Of a stretch of 64,000 bases of DNA, positions 20,990-27,488 are shown in pieces. The notes under the pieces were generated by a model that worked only from the letters and a program-made list of their open reading frames with translations, was not told where the DNA came from and searched no databases. The stretch is from Pyrinomonadaceae bacterium (GTDB taxonomy: Bacteria > Acidobacteriota > Blastocatellia > Pyrinomonadales > Pyrinomonadaceae). Within the stretch, counting starts at the first letter, position 1; every line of letters starts with the position of its first letter. The stretch lies in NCBI GenBank assembly GCA_026129865.1, contig JAHCHG010000004.1, positions 248,001-312,000 on the forward strand, given 5' to 3'. Position numbers and translations under genes: made by a program.

Positions 20990-21106
20990 GTTTTCTTTGT
21001 CCGAACATTCAATTGTTTGTTTCAACTTCGCGCCGAAGTGTGTCCTTTTTCGGCTCGATTGAAACTTCTAACGCTGTTTTTGTCAGTTAGAGAGGAAATT
21101 TTAGCA

Positions 21107-22513
21107 ATGACTATTTTAAATTCGCACAGCCTTTTCAAATGGCTGGCGGCGACGGTTTTATTATTGCCGATTATCTACCCGAATTATAAAACGAACGCCC
21201 AACAGGTAGCTTTATTGACAAAAGAGGAAACAAAAGTTTCTTCTACGGCGAAACCGATCTTGGTTTCAACTTTGCCGAATTATTACGATTCGCAGGACGG
21301 CATTTCGCTTAAAGATCTGATCCGCCGCGCTCTGGAAACGAATCAGGATCTAGCGGCGGACAGGCTTGAAATCGAAAAGGCGAAAGCCCGATTAGACCAA
21401 GCGCGTCTGCGTCCGAATCCGACGCTTGAATTCGAGCAGGAATCCGGCAGAATTGTCGGCAACGGCGGCGACGGACAGTTTACCGTCGGCGCGTCGCTAC
21501 CGATTGAAATATACGGACGGCGCACGGAGAGAATAAATTACGCGCTGATCGCCATCGATGCAAGCGAGGCGGAAGTTCGCAACCGCGAGAGAATTTTAGT
21601 TGCCAATGTTTTGACCAATTATGCCGAAGCACTCGCCGCTTTGCGCGAACTCGAAGCGACGGAAAATCTGCTCGAACTTGATTTGCAGACGACGCGATTT
21701 GTGCAGATTCGCGTCAACGAAGGCGACACGCCGCCGCTCGAACTGAATCTTTTGCAGGCGGAAGTCGAGCGTCTTCGCTCGCGGCGTGAACTTGCCGAAG
21801 GTCGGCTGCAAGCGGCTTTAACGCAGCTGAAAATGCTTGGAGGATCATCTTTTGATGAACCTTTAAGATTACGCGAACAAATCAACTCGGCGATACTGCC
21901 CGTTCTGCCTGCGACACCGGACGCGGCGGTTGATATTGGACTCCGAACGCGCCCGGATGTTCTTCTGGCGCGGATCGAAGAGCAGGTTTCGACCGCCGGT
22001 TTGCGGCTCATCAAAGCGCAGTCGCGCCCGGATTTGACGGCTTACACACGCTATTCACAAGGGCGTTCGGTGATTGATACTTCAATCGGAAATTTTCCGC
22101 AGCGCGACCGCAGTTTGACGTTCGGCGTGGCAATCGGAATTCCGATTTTTAATAAAAATCAAGGCGCGAAAGCCGAAGCGGAAATTAATATCCGACAGGC
22201 AAAAGCGCGGCTCGAATTTGCCGAAAGAGTCGTGCGCGGCGAGATTTTAGCGGCGTACCAGAAAATTGAAGCCGCTAATCGTGCCGTTTCAACACTAGAA
22301 ACGGCGGCAATTCCGCAAATGACGAATAACGTCGAAACCTTTCGCAAAGTCTATCAGATCGGCGAGATAAAAATCACCGATTTAATCAACGAACAAAGAA
22401 GACTGCTGGACGCAAACCGCGATTTGACCGAAGCCCTGACGCTGCGGTATCGCGCCAATGCCGATTTGTTGATCGCGCTCGGCGCGGGCGGACTTTTGCC
22501 GGAAACGAAGTGA
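21107..22513 (+). CDS. czcC: CzcC-like TolC family outer-membrane metal efflux protein
   Basis: 468 residues from the ATG at 21107, which has GAGAGGA upstream and begins directly with a signal peptide; an in-frame ATG at 21017 would add 30 unlikely residues. The outer-membrane-factor domain begins at ISLKDLIRRALETNQDLAADR and includes IPIFNKNQGAKAEAEI, a segment typical of CzcC-like proteins. It forms the outer-membrane exit duct of an RND cation pump with the CzcB and CzcA proteins that follow. Base composition of this and the next two genes looks more GC-rich than the neighbourhood, which may reflect acquisition by transfer. Confidence 0.92.
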   Translation: MTILNSHSLFKWLAATVLLLPIIYPNYKTNAQQVALLTKEETKVSSTAKPILVSTLPNYYDSQDGISLKDLIRRALETNQDLAADRLEIEKAKARLDQARLRPNPTLEFEQESGRIVGNGGDGQFTVGASLPIEIYGRRTERINYALIAIDASEAEVRNRERILVANVLTNYAEALAALRELEATENLLELDLQTTRFVQIRVNEGDTPPLELNLLQAEVERLRSRRELAEGRLQAALTQLKMLGGSSFDEPLRLREQINSAILPVLPATPDAAVDIGLRTRPDVLLARIEEQVSTAGLRLIKAQSRPDLTAYTRYSQGRSVIDTSIGNFPQRDRSLTFGVAIGIPIFNKNQGAKAEAEINIRQAKARLEFAERVVRGEILAAYQKIEAANRAVSTLETAAIPQMTNNVETFRKVYQIGEIKITDLINEQRRLLDANRDLTEALTLRYRANADLLIALGAGGLLPETK

Positions 22514-22552
22514 GGTTATTGACGTGAGTTCTAGATAAGAAATCAAGATTTA

Positions 22553-22742
22553 GTCGGTGAAACCGACGTTATATTTGTAGCCCACGATGCAAATCGTGGG
22601 AATAATGCCGGAAAATTGACAAAGCCATTGAAAATGGCGGCATAAATATTATGTCACGGTTATTCAACCGTTTGAAACAATCCTGTAACCTGTTCCCATA
22701 ACTGGCGTTATGGGCTACAAATATATCGCCATCTTCGATGGC
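22553..22742. repeat. Composite palindrome of six hairpins, REP/RAYT-type element
   Basis: The 327 bases between czcC and czcB hold no gene but six hairpins, mirror-symmetric about 22647/22648. Left arm: GTCGGT-GAA-ACCGAC (22553-22567), CCCACGAT/ATCGTGGG (22581-22600), GCCATT-GAA-AATGGC (22624-22638). Right arm: ACGGTT/AACCGT (22656-22671), CCCATAAC/GTTATGGG (22695-22714), GCCATC-TTC-GATGGC (22728-22742). ATATTTGTAGCCCA (22571-22584) is an exact inverted copy of 22711-22724. Loops (GAA against TTC) and flanks match between arms while stems differ but keep pairing. This fits a REP-like element mobilised by a RAYT transposase encoded elsewhere. In the czc transcript it could also alter mRNA stability. 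Confidence 0.85.
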
Positions 22743-22840
22743 TTGTCTCGAATTCACGAAATATTAGAGCAAAAGTAAAAAGGTAAAACCAAGAACTTTT
22801 GCATATTTGAATTTGTGAAGAAATTAAAAGGCAAATTGGA

Positions 22841-24337
22841 ATGAAAGAAGAAATTAAACAACGAGAAACGAAAAACATTAGTGAAACCGACGAAATAATT
22901 GAAACTACGGAAAACGTTGAAACATTTGAAGAAGTCGAAAGCGACACGCCCGAATCAAAACCGCGCCAGATGTTCGCATGGCTTTTAACGATTGCGATTA
23001 TCGCGCTCGTCGGAATTGTCGCGGTTGCTTGGATGGCAAGCAAAAAACCAACAACCGATGTCAGTGTCGAAACCGCCGCCACGGAAGAAGAACATTCCGA
23101 AAACGAGAGCGGGCGCGAAGTAAAACTCGAACCTGAAACTCTTGCTTCGGCAAATCTAGAATATGAAGCCGTAACCCAGCGTCCGGCGGTCGCTTTGCTT
23201 AATGCGACGGGAATAATCGAGACCAACCCGCAATTGACACAATCGGTTACGCCGCTCGTCGGCGGACGGGTCGAGCGGATGACAGCGACTGTCGGTGATC
23301 ATGTCAGGCGCGGCAGTTTGCTGGCGATTATTTCCAGTCCGCAGATCGCGCAGATTCACGGCAAAATGCACGAAGCCGAAACCGCGCTCGGAATCGCTGA
23401 AAGAAATCTGGCGCGGGTGCAAAAAGCGGAAAACCGCGTCGCCGTTCTTTCTGCGAAAGCCAAACTCGACGAATCGGAAGCGAGCTTAAAGCGCGTCAGA
23501 CGTTTGAACGAGCTCGGCGCGGGCGCAGGGAAAGATATTATTTCGGCAGAGACGAACTATAAAACCGCCCAAGCCGAGTACGAATTTCAGACGAATATTT
23601 CGCTCAACAAGGAAATTCAGGAAGCGAAAGCCGCCGCCGAAACCGCGCGTGTTGATCTGCGCCACATCCGCGACGAGATGCGCTCGCTCGGCGTAGAACT
23701 TGCGCCGCACAACGCCGACAATCATCAGCGCGATACGTCTCTGGTCTCGATTTATGCGCCGGCGGCGGGAATGGTAACGGAGCGTCCGGTCAATCCCGGC
23801 GCGGGTATCGAAACCGGAACGACGCTGTTTGTTTTATCGAATTTATCGAGCGTTTATGCCGTCGCCAACGTGCCGGAAGCCCAGATGACGCTTTTGCAGA
23901 TCGGCACGACGGCGGAAATTCGCACACCGGCAATGGGCGGCGGTTCGCTCACCGCGCGGATTACTTATATTGATCCGCAGCTCAACGAGGATACGCGGAC
24001 GGGCAGAATTCGGCTCGAAGTTCCGAATCCGAACGGTCGTCTGCGTGCGGGAATGTTTGTCGAAGTCGGCTTTCATACCGGCACGAATGCCGCGACCGGC
24101 GAAGAACTCGTTGTTCGGACGGCGGCGATTCAGAATACCGGCGGCAAATCGGTCGTGTTTGTCCCGCGCGAAGGCGAAGCGGGCGCATTTGAGGTGCGCG
24201 AAGTCGAAACGGGTTTGGAAACCGGCGGCTACACGCGCATAAAAAAAGGCTTGCAGCTTGGCGAGACGGTCGTTACAAAAGGGAGTTTTACGCTTAAAAC
24301 GCAGCTCGAAAAAGGCGCGATCGGCGATGACCACTAA
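22841..24337 (+). CDS. czcB: CzcB-like RND efflux periplasmic adaptor
   Basis: 498 residues. An acidic cytoplasmic N-terminus of about 45 residues precedes a membrane anchor (about 48-66, FAWLLTIAIIALVGIVAV). The membrane-fusion fold follows: barrel-sandwich half VGGRVERMTATVGDHVRRGS, a long coiled-coil hairpin (about 165-275), the second half (VSIYAPAAGMVTERPVNPGA) and a beta-barrel domain. A His/Glu-rich patch, EEEHSENESG, precedes the fold and could bind metal. It links the CzcA pump to the CzcC duct. It is followed by czcA after 43 bases. Confidence 0.92.
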   Translation: MKEEIKQRETKNISETDEIIETTENVETFEEVESDTPESKPRQMFAWLLTIAIIALVGIVAVAWMASKKPTTDVSVETAATEEEHSENESGREVKLEPETLASANLEYEAVTQRPAVALLNATGIIETNPQLTQSVTPLVGGRVERMTATVGDHVRRGSLLAIISSPQIAQIHGKMHEAETALGIAERNLARVQKAENRVAVLSAKAKLDESEASLKRVRRLNELGAGAGKDIISAETNYKTAQAEYEFQTNISLNKEIQEAKAAAETARVDLRHIRDEMRSLGVELAPHNADNHQRDTSLVSIYAPAAGMVTERPVNPGAGIETGTTLFVLSNLSSVYAVANVPEAQMTLLQIGTTAEIRTPAMGGGSLTARITYIDPQLNEDTRTGRIRLEVPNPNGRLRAGMFVEVGFHTGTNAATGEELVVRTAAIQNTGGKSVVFVPREGEAGAFEVREVETGLETGGYTRIKKGLQLGETVVTKGSFTLKTQLEKGAIGDDH

Positions 24338-24380: not shown

Positions 24381-27300
24381 ATGATAAACGCACTTATTCG
24401 CTTTTCTATTTCGCAAAAACTGGTCGTTCTGATGCTCGTGGCAATTATGTCGGGCGCGGGAATTTACAGTTTGATTACTTTACCGATTGATGCCGTGCCT
24501 GACGTAACTAACGTGCAGGTGCAGGTCCTAACTGGCGCGCCGTCGCTCGCACCTTTGGAGATCGAACGGCAAATCACGTTTCCTATTGAAATTGCAATGA
24601 GCGGAGTTCCGGGTGTCGAAGAGATCCGCTCGGTGTCGAAATTCGGCATCTCCAACGTAACCATTGTTTTTGAAGAATCGACCGACATTTACTTTGCCAG
24701 ACAGCTTGTTCTCGAACGTCTTTCCCAGGCGCGTGAACAGATTCCGCCCGGCATCGGGTCGCCCGAAATGGGTCCGATCGCGACCGGCTTGGGCGAAATT
24801 TATCAATACGAAGTCAAAGCCGAGAAAGGCAGTAATTATTCGGCGACTGATTTGAGGACGATTCACGATTGGAACATTCGCCGTCAATTGATGGGCGTTC
24901 CCGGCGTAACGGAAGTCAATTCGCACGGCGGTTACGGCAAACAATACGAAGTGCGTCTGTCGCCCGAAAAACTGCAAAGTTACGATCTGACGTTGCGCAA
25001 CGTTTACGAATCCGTCACCCGCAATAACGGCACGGTTGGAGGAGGCTATATCGAAAGAGGCGCGGAACAGTACCTTCTGCGCGGGGTCGGCTTAATCGAA
25101 AAAATGGACGATATTTCAAATATTGTCGTCAAAACCGGCGCAGACGGCGTTCCGGTTTATGTCAAAGATTTAGGCGAGGTGGTCGAAGGCAAAGGCATCC
25201 GGCAAGGCGCGGTAACGGCGGACGGCGAAGGCGAAATCGTGTCCGGAATGGCGATTATGCTCAAAGGCGAAAATTCCCGCACGGTCGCCGAGCGCGTTGC
25301 GGCGCGAATCGACGAAATCCGCAAAACTTTGCCGGACGGCGTTACCATTGAGCCGTTTTACGACCGCACCGCGCTGGTCAAACGGGCGATTGCCACCGTC
25401 GAGAAAAATTTGATCGAAGGCGCGCTGCTTGTCATTTTTGTTCTGCTTCTGCTTTTAGGAAACTGGCGCGGAGCATTGCTCGTGGCGACGATAATTCCGC
25501 TTTCGATGTTGTTTGCGGCGATTCTCATGCGGATTTTTAATGTGTCGGGAAATTTGATGAGTTTGGGCGCGTTGGATTTCGGTTTGATCGTTGACGGCGC
25601 GGTTGTGATGGTCGAAAACGTCGTGCGAAGACGAAGCGAGGCGCAGCACGAACATTCACGCGAACCGCCCGAACGGACGATTTTGGAGGGGTGTCTCGAA
25701 GTTGCGCGTCCGGTCGTGTTCGCCGTTGCCATCATCGCCATCGTATATCTGCCAATTCTTTCGCTTCGCGGCATTGAAGGCAAAATGTTCGTGCCGATGG
25801 CTTTGACCGTGATTTTCGCCTTGCTCGGTTCGTTGATTTTATCTTTAACTTATGTGCCGGCAATGCTCGCTCTCATTTTGCGCGGCAAAGTTTCCGAAAG
25901 CGAAAGTTTTCTGATCCGCTGGGCGAAACAAACTTATAAACCTGCACTTCGGTTCGTGATGAGATTCCGTGCACAGGTCTTGGCGATTGCCGTCGGAACG
26001 GTTTTGATTTCGGGCGCGATTTTCCCGTATCTCGGCGGCGAATTTATTCCGCGTCTCGACGAAGGCGATATTTTGATCGAAGCGATTATGCTGCCGAGCG
26101 TTTCCTTGGATCAATCAATGAGAACAACGACTGAAATCGAAAAATCTCTTAAAGCATTTCCCGAAGTCAAAACGATCGTTTCAAAATGCGGCGCACCGGC
26201 GGTTGCGAATGATTCGATGAGTCTTAATCAATGCGACGTTTTTACGATGCTCCATCCGATTGATGAGTGGAAATCGGGAATGACGAAAGAAGAATTGATC
26301 GAGGCGATGACGGAAAAGGTCGAAAAGGAAGTTCCCGGCGCAGCTTCGTTCGGTTTTATGCAGCCGATTGAAATGCGAGTTAATGAACTGATCGCCGGTA
26401 CTCGAGGGGATGTCGCCATCAAACTTTTCGGCGACGATTTAGATGTTTTGGCAAAAAAAGGCGTGGAAATCGAGCGGGTTCTCGCCCAAATTCAGGGTGC
26501 GGAAGAAACAAAAGCCGAAGTAACGACCGGCTTGCCGCAATTGCAAATCAAACCAGACCGAGCCGCGATTGCGCGATATGGTTTGAATGTAGAGGATGTC
26601 AATGATCTTGTCGAATCGATCTTCGCGGGCAAAAAAGCCGGACAGGTTTTCGAGGGCGAACAGCGCTTCGACATCGTTTTGCGCTTAAACGAAAGTGCTT
26701 CGCAGACTATCGACTCGGTTAAAGATCTGATGATGACCGCGCCGACGGGACAACGCGTTCCGCTTGCGCAAGTCGCCGAGATTTCTGTTGTCGAAGGCGC
26801 AGCGCAGATTTCCCGCGACGACACGCGCCGCCGGATCGTCGTTTCAACGAATGTCCGCAACCGTGACATTGCGAGTTTTGTCGAGGAAGCAAAGCAAAAA
26901 ATCGAAAAAGAGGTCAGTTTACCGCCTGGATATTACCTGACGTGGGGCGGAGCGTTCGAAAATCTCGAACGCGCCACTGGAACGCTTATAATCGTCGTGC
27001 CTATTGCACTATTCCTTATTTTCGTGATGCTTTTTTCGACCTTTGGTTCGGCAAAACAAGCGCTAATAGTTTACACCGGAATTCCGTTTGCGATAGTCGG
27101 CGGCGTATTTGCTTTGGCAATTCGCGGAATGCCGTTTTCGATTTCCGCCGGAGTCGGTTTTATCGCGCTGTTCGGCGTGGCGGTGCTAAACGGCGTGGTA
27201 ATGGTTTCCTACATCAACCAACTCCGGCGGGAAGGGAAAACCGTATTGGAAGCCGTTACAGAAGGCGCGATGACGCGGCTTCGTCCCGTTTTAATGACCG

Positions 27301-27488
27301 CACTCGTCGCCAGTTTGGGGTTTATACCAATGGCGATTGCGACCAGCGCGGGCGCGGAAGTTCAGCGTCCTTTGGCAACGGTTGTGATCGGCGGTCTGAT
27401 AACTTCGACGCTGCTGACTTTGCTGATTCTGCCGACGCTGTATGCGTGGATCGAACGCGACCCGGAAGGAGTTTTTGAAGAAGAATAA
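24381..27488 (+). CDS. czcA: CzcA-like heavy-metal efflux RND transporter
   Basis: 1035 residues, the normal length. It is an inner-membrane proton-driven pump of the HME class that expels divalent metal cations. The diagnostic motif in the fourth membrane helix, DFGLIVDGAVVMVEN at 399-413, with Asp399, Asp405 and Glu412, fits the Co/Zn/Cd/Ni (CzcA, CnrA) subgroups better than the Cu/Ag pump CusA, which has a different helix motif. Twelve hydrophobic segments and two large periplasmic loops can be traced. The exact metal cannot be read from sequence. No metal sensor gene adjoins the operon. Confidence 0.95.
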   Translation: MINALIRFSISQKLVVLMLVAIMSGAGIYSLITLPIDAVPDVTNVQVQVLTGAPSLAPLEIERQITFPIEIAMSGVPGVEEIRSVSKFGISNVTIVFEESTDIYFARQLVLERLSQAREQIPPGIGSPEMGPIATGLGEIYQYEVKAEKGSNYSATDLRTIHDWNIRRQLMGVPGVTEVNSHGGYGKQYEVRLSPEKLQSYDLTLRNVYESVTRNNGTVGGGYIERGAEQYLLRGVGLIEKMDDISNIVVKTGADGVPVYVKDLGEVVEGKGIRQGAVTADGEGEIVSGMAIMLKGENSRTVAERVAARIDEIRKTLPDGVTIEPFYDRTALVKRAIATVEKNLIEGALLVIFVLLLLLGNWRGALLVATIIPLSMLFAAILMRIFNVSGNLMSLGALDFGLIVDGAVVMVENVVRRRSEAQHEHSREPPERTILEGCLEVARPVVFAVAIIAIVYLPILSLRGIEGKMFVPMALTVIFALLGSLILSLTYVPAMLALILRGKVSESESFLIRWAKQTYKPALRFVMRFRAQVLAIAVGTVLISGAIFPYLGGEFIPRLDEGDILIEAIMLPSVSLDQSMRTTTEIEKSLKAFPEVKTIVSKCGAPAVANDSMSLNQCDVFTMLHPIDEWKSGMTKEELIEAMTEKVEKEVPGAASFGFMQPIEMRVNELIAGTRGDVAIKLFGDDLDVLAKKGVEIERVLAQIQGAEETKAEVTTGLPQLQIKPDRAAIARYGLNVEDVNDLVESIFAGKKAGQVFEGEQRFDIVLRLNESASQTIDSVKDLMMTAPTGQRVPLAQVAEISVVEGAAQISRDDTRRRIVVSTNVRNRDIASFVEEAKQKIEKEVSLPPGYYLTWGGAFENLERATGTLIIVVPIALFLIFVMLFSTFGSAKQALIVYTGIPFAIVGGVFALAIRGMPFSISAGVGFIALFGVAVLNGVVMVSYINQLRREGKTVLEAVTEGAMTRLRPVLMTALVASLGFIPMAIATSAGAEVQRPLATVVIGGLITSTLLTLLILPTLYAWIERDPEGVFEEE

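Follow-up and report, generated by a model that had tools for sequence, protein, structure and literature searches.

The composite palindrome at positions 22553-22742 of the window (the whole stretch of 64,000 nucleotides of Pyrinomonadaceae DNA that was analysed) very probably consists of the ends of an IS200/IS605-like transposon that carry no gene between them, became enclosed by IS982 repeats, were dispersed by IS982 in trans and landed between czcC and czcB. Each arm carries three hairpins, arranged as A-B-C and C'-B'-A' around a mirror axis at 22647/22648, and all six hairpins and the axis lie where the initial annotation had placed them. On the forward strand, the left arm comprises hairpin A (22553-22567, GTCGGT-GAA-ACCGAC; 6-bp stem, GAA loop), hairpin B (22581-22600, CCCACGAT-GCAA-ATCGTGGG; 8-bp stem, GCAA loop, with GTAG just 5' of it) and hairpin C (22624-22638, GCCATT-GAA-AATGGC; 6-bp stem, GAA loop). 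The right arm, assigned to the minus strand, comprises hairpin C' (22656-22671, ACGGTT-ATTC-AACCGT), the loop of which reads GAAT on that strand, hairpin B' (22695-22714, CCCATAAC-TGGC-GTTATGGG; 8-bp stem, GCCA loop on the minus strand) and hairpin A' (22728-22742, GCCATC-TTC-GATGGC; 6-bp stem, GAA loop on the minus strand).

From the outside to the inside, both arms thus read A, 13 nt ending in GTAG, B with a GNNA loop, 23 nt, and C, with the A-B and B-C spacings (13 and 23 nt) alike on the left and on the right. GTAG stands 5' of both B hairpins in the window copy, and hairpins A and C are without it. The exact sequence that the arms had been said to have in common is ATATTTGTAGCCCA (22571-22584, forward strand, with its inverted copy at 22711-22724), which covers the A-B linker with its GTAG foot and the start of hairpin B and is kept in relatives; its core, GTAGCCCA, has only two sites in the window, one per arm. 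Conserved GAA/TTC loops had also been claimed, and these are found in A, C and A' but not in the fourth hairpin, C', where the loop of the window copy has 4 nt (GAAT on the GAA strand); in several sister copies it is GAA. What had been overlooked are terminal inverted repeats just outside hairpins A and A', and the true element is therefore larger, about 238 bp (22522-22759, unstranded). The left repeat, ACGTGAGTTCTAGATAAG (22522-22539, forward strand), is common to the sister copies and to IS982-family insertion sequences of relatives, and the right one, CTTGTCTCGAATTCACG (22742-22758, minus strand), is degenerate, with a match at C16:270742-270757. There is no open reading frame of at least 80 aa confined to the 238-bp element.

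The palindrome is far beyond chance, as indicated by its folding z-scores of -8.1 (RNA) and -6.7 (DNA), with none of 200 shuffles folding as well, and by the recurrence of the architecture in many copies. The predicted RNA minimum is a single long arm-arm structure, not six hairpins. Covariation was analysed in an alignment of ten copies that had been picked by sequence similarity; eight of these belong to this genome and one each to G033 and G016. In the six small stems 98.3% of cells were paired, 20 of the 40 pairs had changed on both sides, and double-sided changes occupied 43 cells versus 9.8 in shuffles (0 of 500 shuffles as high); when the partner was slid by 1-3 columns as a control, pairing went down to 27-47%. 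The long arm-arm palindrome yielded just 6 double-change cells versus 2.9 in shuffles, and one long cruciform was rejected as the selected structure, its arm-arm pairs being without clear covariation. The maintained unit is the set of six small hairpins, and the earlier claim of selection on folding is borne out by the covariation of their stems. Hairpin-correcting template switching could yield some of the compensatory changes without protein recognition, and it is a partial alternative. Of 108 arms, 88 have a GNA loop in hairpin A and 85 a GNNA loop in hairpin B, the latter divided into 58 GNRA and 27 GNYA loops, with 23 B loops of other types. GNNA-type loops are stable in DNA, and the mixture of B loops is suggestive of such DNA-type loops, while not decisive for DNA versus RNA.

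The gene that is missing between the arms is found in relatives, in which a 148-aa HUH Y1 transposase of the IS200/IS605 type is encoded between C and C'. The order A-B-C-gene-C'-B'-A' occurs at L211, L214, L215, L218, L222 and other loci, and at L211 (genome G045) the arrangement reads A, 13, B, 23, C, gene, C', 21, B', 13, A', next to 13, 23 and 23, 13 in the window. The arms of relatives have A-B spacings of 11-14 nt and B-C spacings mostly of 20-26 nt, the foot is GTAG, ATAG or TTAG in most arms overall, and in many gene-bearing relatives the start of the TnpA gene lies some 5-25 nt inward of hairpin C. At L212 (G056), a gene-less six-hairpin module lies directly upstream of a gene-bearing one. 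A scan of 35 Y1 loci selected solely on protein similarity showed an upstream arm at 21, an inverted downstream arm at 25, both at 19 and an arm on at least one side at 27, compared with 4 of 2000 control stretches. The near-identical arm spacing and the presence of an arm beside 27 of the 35 Y1 genes argue that the palindrome represents the triple-hairpin ends of the transposon minus its gene. Arms stand beside Y1 genes in both Acidobacteriota and Verrucomicrobiota; three Verrucomicrobia/Akkermansia loci and another Acidobacteria locus have the same hairpin order with different stems. The three-hairpin end design is conserved across two or more bacterial phyla, and the running text of open-licence papers gave no description of such ends.

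An IS200-like gene with matching flanks, which the initial annotation had suggested looking for, exists in relatives but was not found in this genome. None of the 13 Y1 matches of the genome is flanked by ATATTTGTAGCCC hairpins, as a cognate RAYT would be, and the assembly, about 96% complete, yielded no close cognate Y1 gene. The Y1 gene of this genome closest to the cognate enzyme (C4:55920-56348, 149 bits) was set aside, as it has its own, different TAGCCTAGGG hairpins. Pattern searches gave no match in a genome-contig collection and one in viral contigs, which is without hairpins and was taken as chance. Other Y1 genes of the same genome have repeats of their own. At L015 (G000:C18:192742-193083), the gene lies beside a tandem array of its own hairpins (2000-2890 of the locus), with GGCGACA...TTAGCCTAGCGAGAATCGCTAGG and CCTATGGTT...ACCATAGG series that form a separate repeat family in which two hairpins follow each other in a similar order; those at L018, L019 and L020 adjoin further distinct palindromes (CGCGGACG..., CGGAAAAGC... 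and CGCAGGC...), apparently gene-specific.

The three linked 148-aa proteins match the IS200/IS605 model NF033573 above its cut-off and score 21-29 bits with the RAYT model NF047646, the cut-off of which is 80; in a wider protein set NF033573 matched 11 of 11. The enzyme also matches PF01797, and the HUH residues His55 and His57 as well as Tyr113 and Gln117 are invariant. The PDB entries related to it in sequence are ISHp608, ISDra2 and further transposases of the IS200 type, and its predicted structure (mean pLDDT 84) compares with the TnpA proteins of IS608 and ISDra2 at Z about 15 and with the REP-associated transposase 4er8 (TnpA-REP) at Z 11.7. Judged by profile and predicted fold, the enzyme is of IS200 type, with REPtron-like surroundings.

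The module belongs to a dispersed family, as the initial annotation had supposed: a whole-genome search for the 11-mer TTTGTAGCCCA gave 11 sites in 4.40 Mb, with three inverted pairs. A search with the element recovered eight near-full copies, including that of the window, together with fragments; the other seven are 75-84% identical to the window copy, and the neighbour genes differ from copy to copy. Homology among the copies extends beyond the hairpins to the IS982-type inverted repeats; these outer repeats are present in most copies, and two copies have decayed at their ends. A 92-bp deletion derivative running from repeat to repeat lies at about C2:63357-63452. The same region (G000:C2:63357-68184) holds three IS982-type-ended elements within 5 kb, of which this internal deletion is one.

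The outer repeats point to the vehicle of dispersal. With two mismatches allowed, 61 of the 119 genomes of the family contain matches to them, of which some are single and possibly due to chance. Ends of the ACGTGAGTTCGANATAAG type bound both the window element and insertion sequences of 0.92-0.99 kb; two of the latter encode intact transposases that match NF033520 (IS982) above its cut-off (L154, 8e-75; L155, 5.7e-72), and the transposase at L153 is partial. Ends of this type also bound MITEs with unrelated interiors. A clear target duplication of 6-9 bp was recognised in 12 of the 21 elements with these ends, with 0.7 expected on permuted flanks. Among the six-hairpin copies, duplications are present at L073 (6/6), L075 (7/8) and L168 in G033 (7/7), the first two being copies of the genome under study that keep them. 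In the window copy the inverted repeats are degenerate and no target duplication can be recognised in the flanks; on the latter ground the copy is probably old. No IS982 transposase was found in the assembly, about 96% complete as stated. IS982-type MITE ends are numerous in G001 and G042 of the same family (46+39 and 34+30 sites), and three MITEs examined in G001, 149-160 bp long, show target duplications and a palindromic interior that is unrelated to the six-hairpin module.

Interiors of the six-hairpin kind also occur in G033 and G030 within different terminal repeats, TIR2 (TAGACATCTTTCCAAAATAA), which enclose the modules L086, L098, L101 and L167. A 920-bp TIR2-bounded segment in L139 encodes, in two overlapping frames, a protein with an HTH_Tnp_4 domain and gave no NCBIfam transposase match; the TIR2 assignment is provisional. 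In G026 (L165), a module with wholly different stems lies inside IS982-type ends. The TIR2-enclosed modules and the G026 case indicate that the module was apparently enclosed by terminal repeats more than once.

The initial annotation had interpreted the palindrome as a REP-like element spread by a RAYT transposase. Parts of this proposal hold, namely the dispersed family, the GTAG 5' of the long hairpins and the existence of an IS200-like HUH transposase with matching flanks; what does not hold is the assignment of the enzyme, which is IS200/IS605 and below the RAYT cut-off, and the mode of spread, since the copies spread as IS982-type MITEs and not as free REPs. In its strict form, in which the Y1 enzyme itself inserted each genomic copy and the inverted repeats are incidental, direct movement of a REP/REPIN family by a RAYT is improbable. 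The GTAG foot and the inverted layout resemble REPINs, gene-linked copies exist, and the six-hairpin copies L089, L090 and L092 of genus g22 have no obvious inverted repeats. However, the homology among the copies of this genome runs past the hairpins to the IS982-type repeats, the 92-bp derivative is a deletion between such repeats, and target duplications like those of L073, L075 and L168 are not expected from single-strand Y1 transposition.

At the site itself, the element interrupts a metal-efflux operon, as the initial annotation had recognised. The upstream gene (21017-22513, forward strand) encodes a TolC-like, czcC-like outer-membrane efflux protein, and its stop lies 8 nt before the element; the downstream gene (22841-24337, forward strand) encodes a CzcB-like periplasmic adaptor and is followed by a CzcA-like RND pump (24381-27488). 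The czcC-czcB gap measures 327 bp in the window versus -41 to +33 bp in 25 of the 26 relatives measured; the remaining relative has an apparent 203-bp overlap, attributed to start-codon choice. The element is an insertion into a normally tight operon. The 81 nt between the element and czcB (22760-22840) hold an inverted repeat, GCAAAAGT/ACTTTTGC (22769-22776 and 22795-22802), and an AT-rich direct repeat (22763-22787 and 22811-22835).

It is very unlikely that the palindrome is a regulatory RNA or mRNA-processing element selected for host control at czcC-czcB, be it an attenuator, an RNase barrier or a device for differential expression. It does sit in an operon gap where it would be transcribed, its predicted folding is strong, and two of its hairpins are followed by T-rich runs that look terminator-like in a simple scan, in which promoter and terminator consensus matches were otherwise few and weak. 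However, none of the 26 relatives measured has room for such an element at this place, the covariation is common to copies outside czc, and a structured RNA was rejected, as no Rfam family matched the element. Because the sister copies adjoin other, unrelated genes, nothing ties the structure to czc. The weakest alternative, a plain palindromic MITE in which the small hairpins are incidental parts of a long inverted repeat without any link to Y1, draws on the IS982-type repeats, the target duplications of sister copies and the imperfect long palindrome, but can be dismissed, as covariation is clear in the small stems and slight in the arm-arm pairing, arms of this kind border a Y1 transposase in many genomes, and the module also occurs within TIR2.

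Under the preferred reading of gene-less IS200/IS605-like ends carried by IS982, the chimera may be compared with several known systems. With IS200/IS605 elements such as IS608 and ISDra2, it has in common the fold and family of the transposase and subterminal hairpins at both ends. In IS608 and ISDra2 there is a single subterminal hairpin per end, and both are read on the same strand, whereas here three hairpins per end stand in mirror orientation. REPtrons and REPINs/BIMEs combine TnpA-REP or RAYT with GTAG-tagged REPs (PMC2817692, PMC3116915, PMC8266576) and likewise have inverted palindromes with a GTAG foot around a Y1 HUH gene, as well as dispersed gene-less inverted hairpin pairs. Unlike in REPtrons, the arm described here has three hairpins in a set order, with nearly constant spacing and loop types, in place of a single REP, both the profile and the fold of the enzyme are IS200-like, the carrier has IS982-type ends, and the copy number is low (about eight near-full copies and fragments in 4.4 Mb versus often more than 100 per genome). 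In Class 3 TnpA-Y1 systems, compared by their description, the foot is CnGA, while it is GTAG/TTAG on hairpin B here, and the passages covered describe no three-by-two end architecture (Quentin et al. 2018, PMC6006769). TIRtrons and double inverted repeats are similar in that compound repeats flank Y1 genes, and in P. putida a degenerated GTAG unit is joined to another stem-loop beside such genes; the repeats are in two parts, and the portions consulted describe neither three-hairpin arms nor a gene-less mirror module in a DDE MITE (Di Nocera et al. 2013, PMC3733652). The IS982-family MITE of Cardinium is also a gene-less element of about 240 bp with IS982-type ends, but it is described as derived from its parent IS982 (PMC9769881), whereas the interior here is that of an unrelated Y1 transposon.

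The proposed course of events would start from two mutually inverted transposon ends. In each, hairpin A has a stem of 6 bp and usually a GNA loop, and a stretch of 11-14 nt with a TAG foot separates it from hairpin B, the stem of which has 8 bp and the loop of which is usually GNNA; after about 20-26 nt follows hairpin C, with a stem of 6 bp. The gene-less form presumably arose through loss of the gene, while the reverse, the capture of a gene by a pre-existing palindrome, could in principle have occurred. In an ancestor, the gene-less module would have been enclosed by IS982-family inverted repeats, and the DDE transposase of IS982 would then have moved the resulting chimera in trans, leaving one copy between czcC and czcB. 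The stems would keep their ability to fold because single-stranded hairpins are what the Y1 enzyme binds and cleaves, a mode of recognition proposed by analogy with IS608 and the TnpA-REP of E. coli. If czcCBA mRNA is affected at all, this would be a by-product of the insertion. Since searches of this genome revealed no IS982 transposase and no cognate Y1 gene, its copies are presumably stranded today.

The Y1 transposase described here stands between the IS200 and RAYT types. The gene-bearing and gene-less forms make up a counterpart pair for the three-hairpin design, in which spacing and loop type are kept while the stems turn over, so that it can be tested directly whether the enzyme recognises structure and not sequence. 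Chimeras of this kind, with the ends of one class of transposon spread by a second class, would also mislead the assignment of REP-like repeats to RAYTs. More tentatively, and with somewhat less than even confidence, we consider that in an IS200-like lineage of Acidobacteriota and Verrucomicrobiota the triple-hairpin mirror ends may serve as a cooperative recognition platform, and that unrelated DDE transposons may have acquired the gene-less ends of this lineage on more than one occasion, namely with IS982-type ends, with TIR2 ends and independently in G026. If so, the end architecture would be unlike the single-hairpin ends of the IS608, ISDra2 and RAYT systems, and the chimeric elements could respond to both single-strand and double-strand transposition systems.
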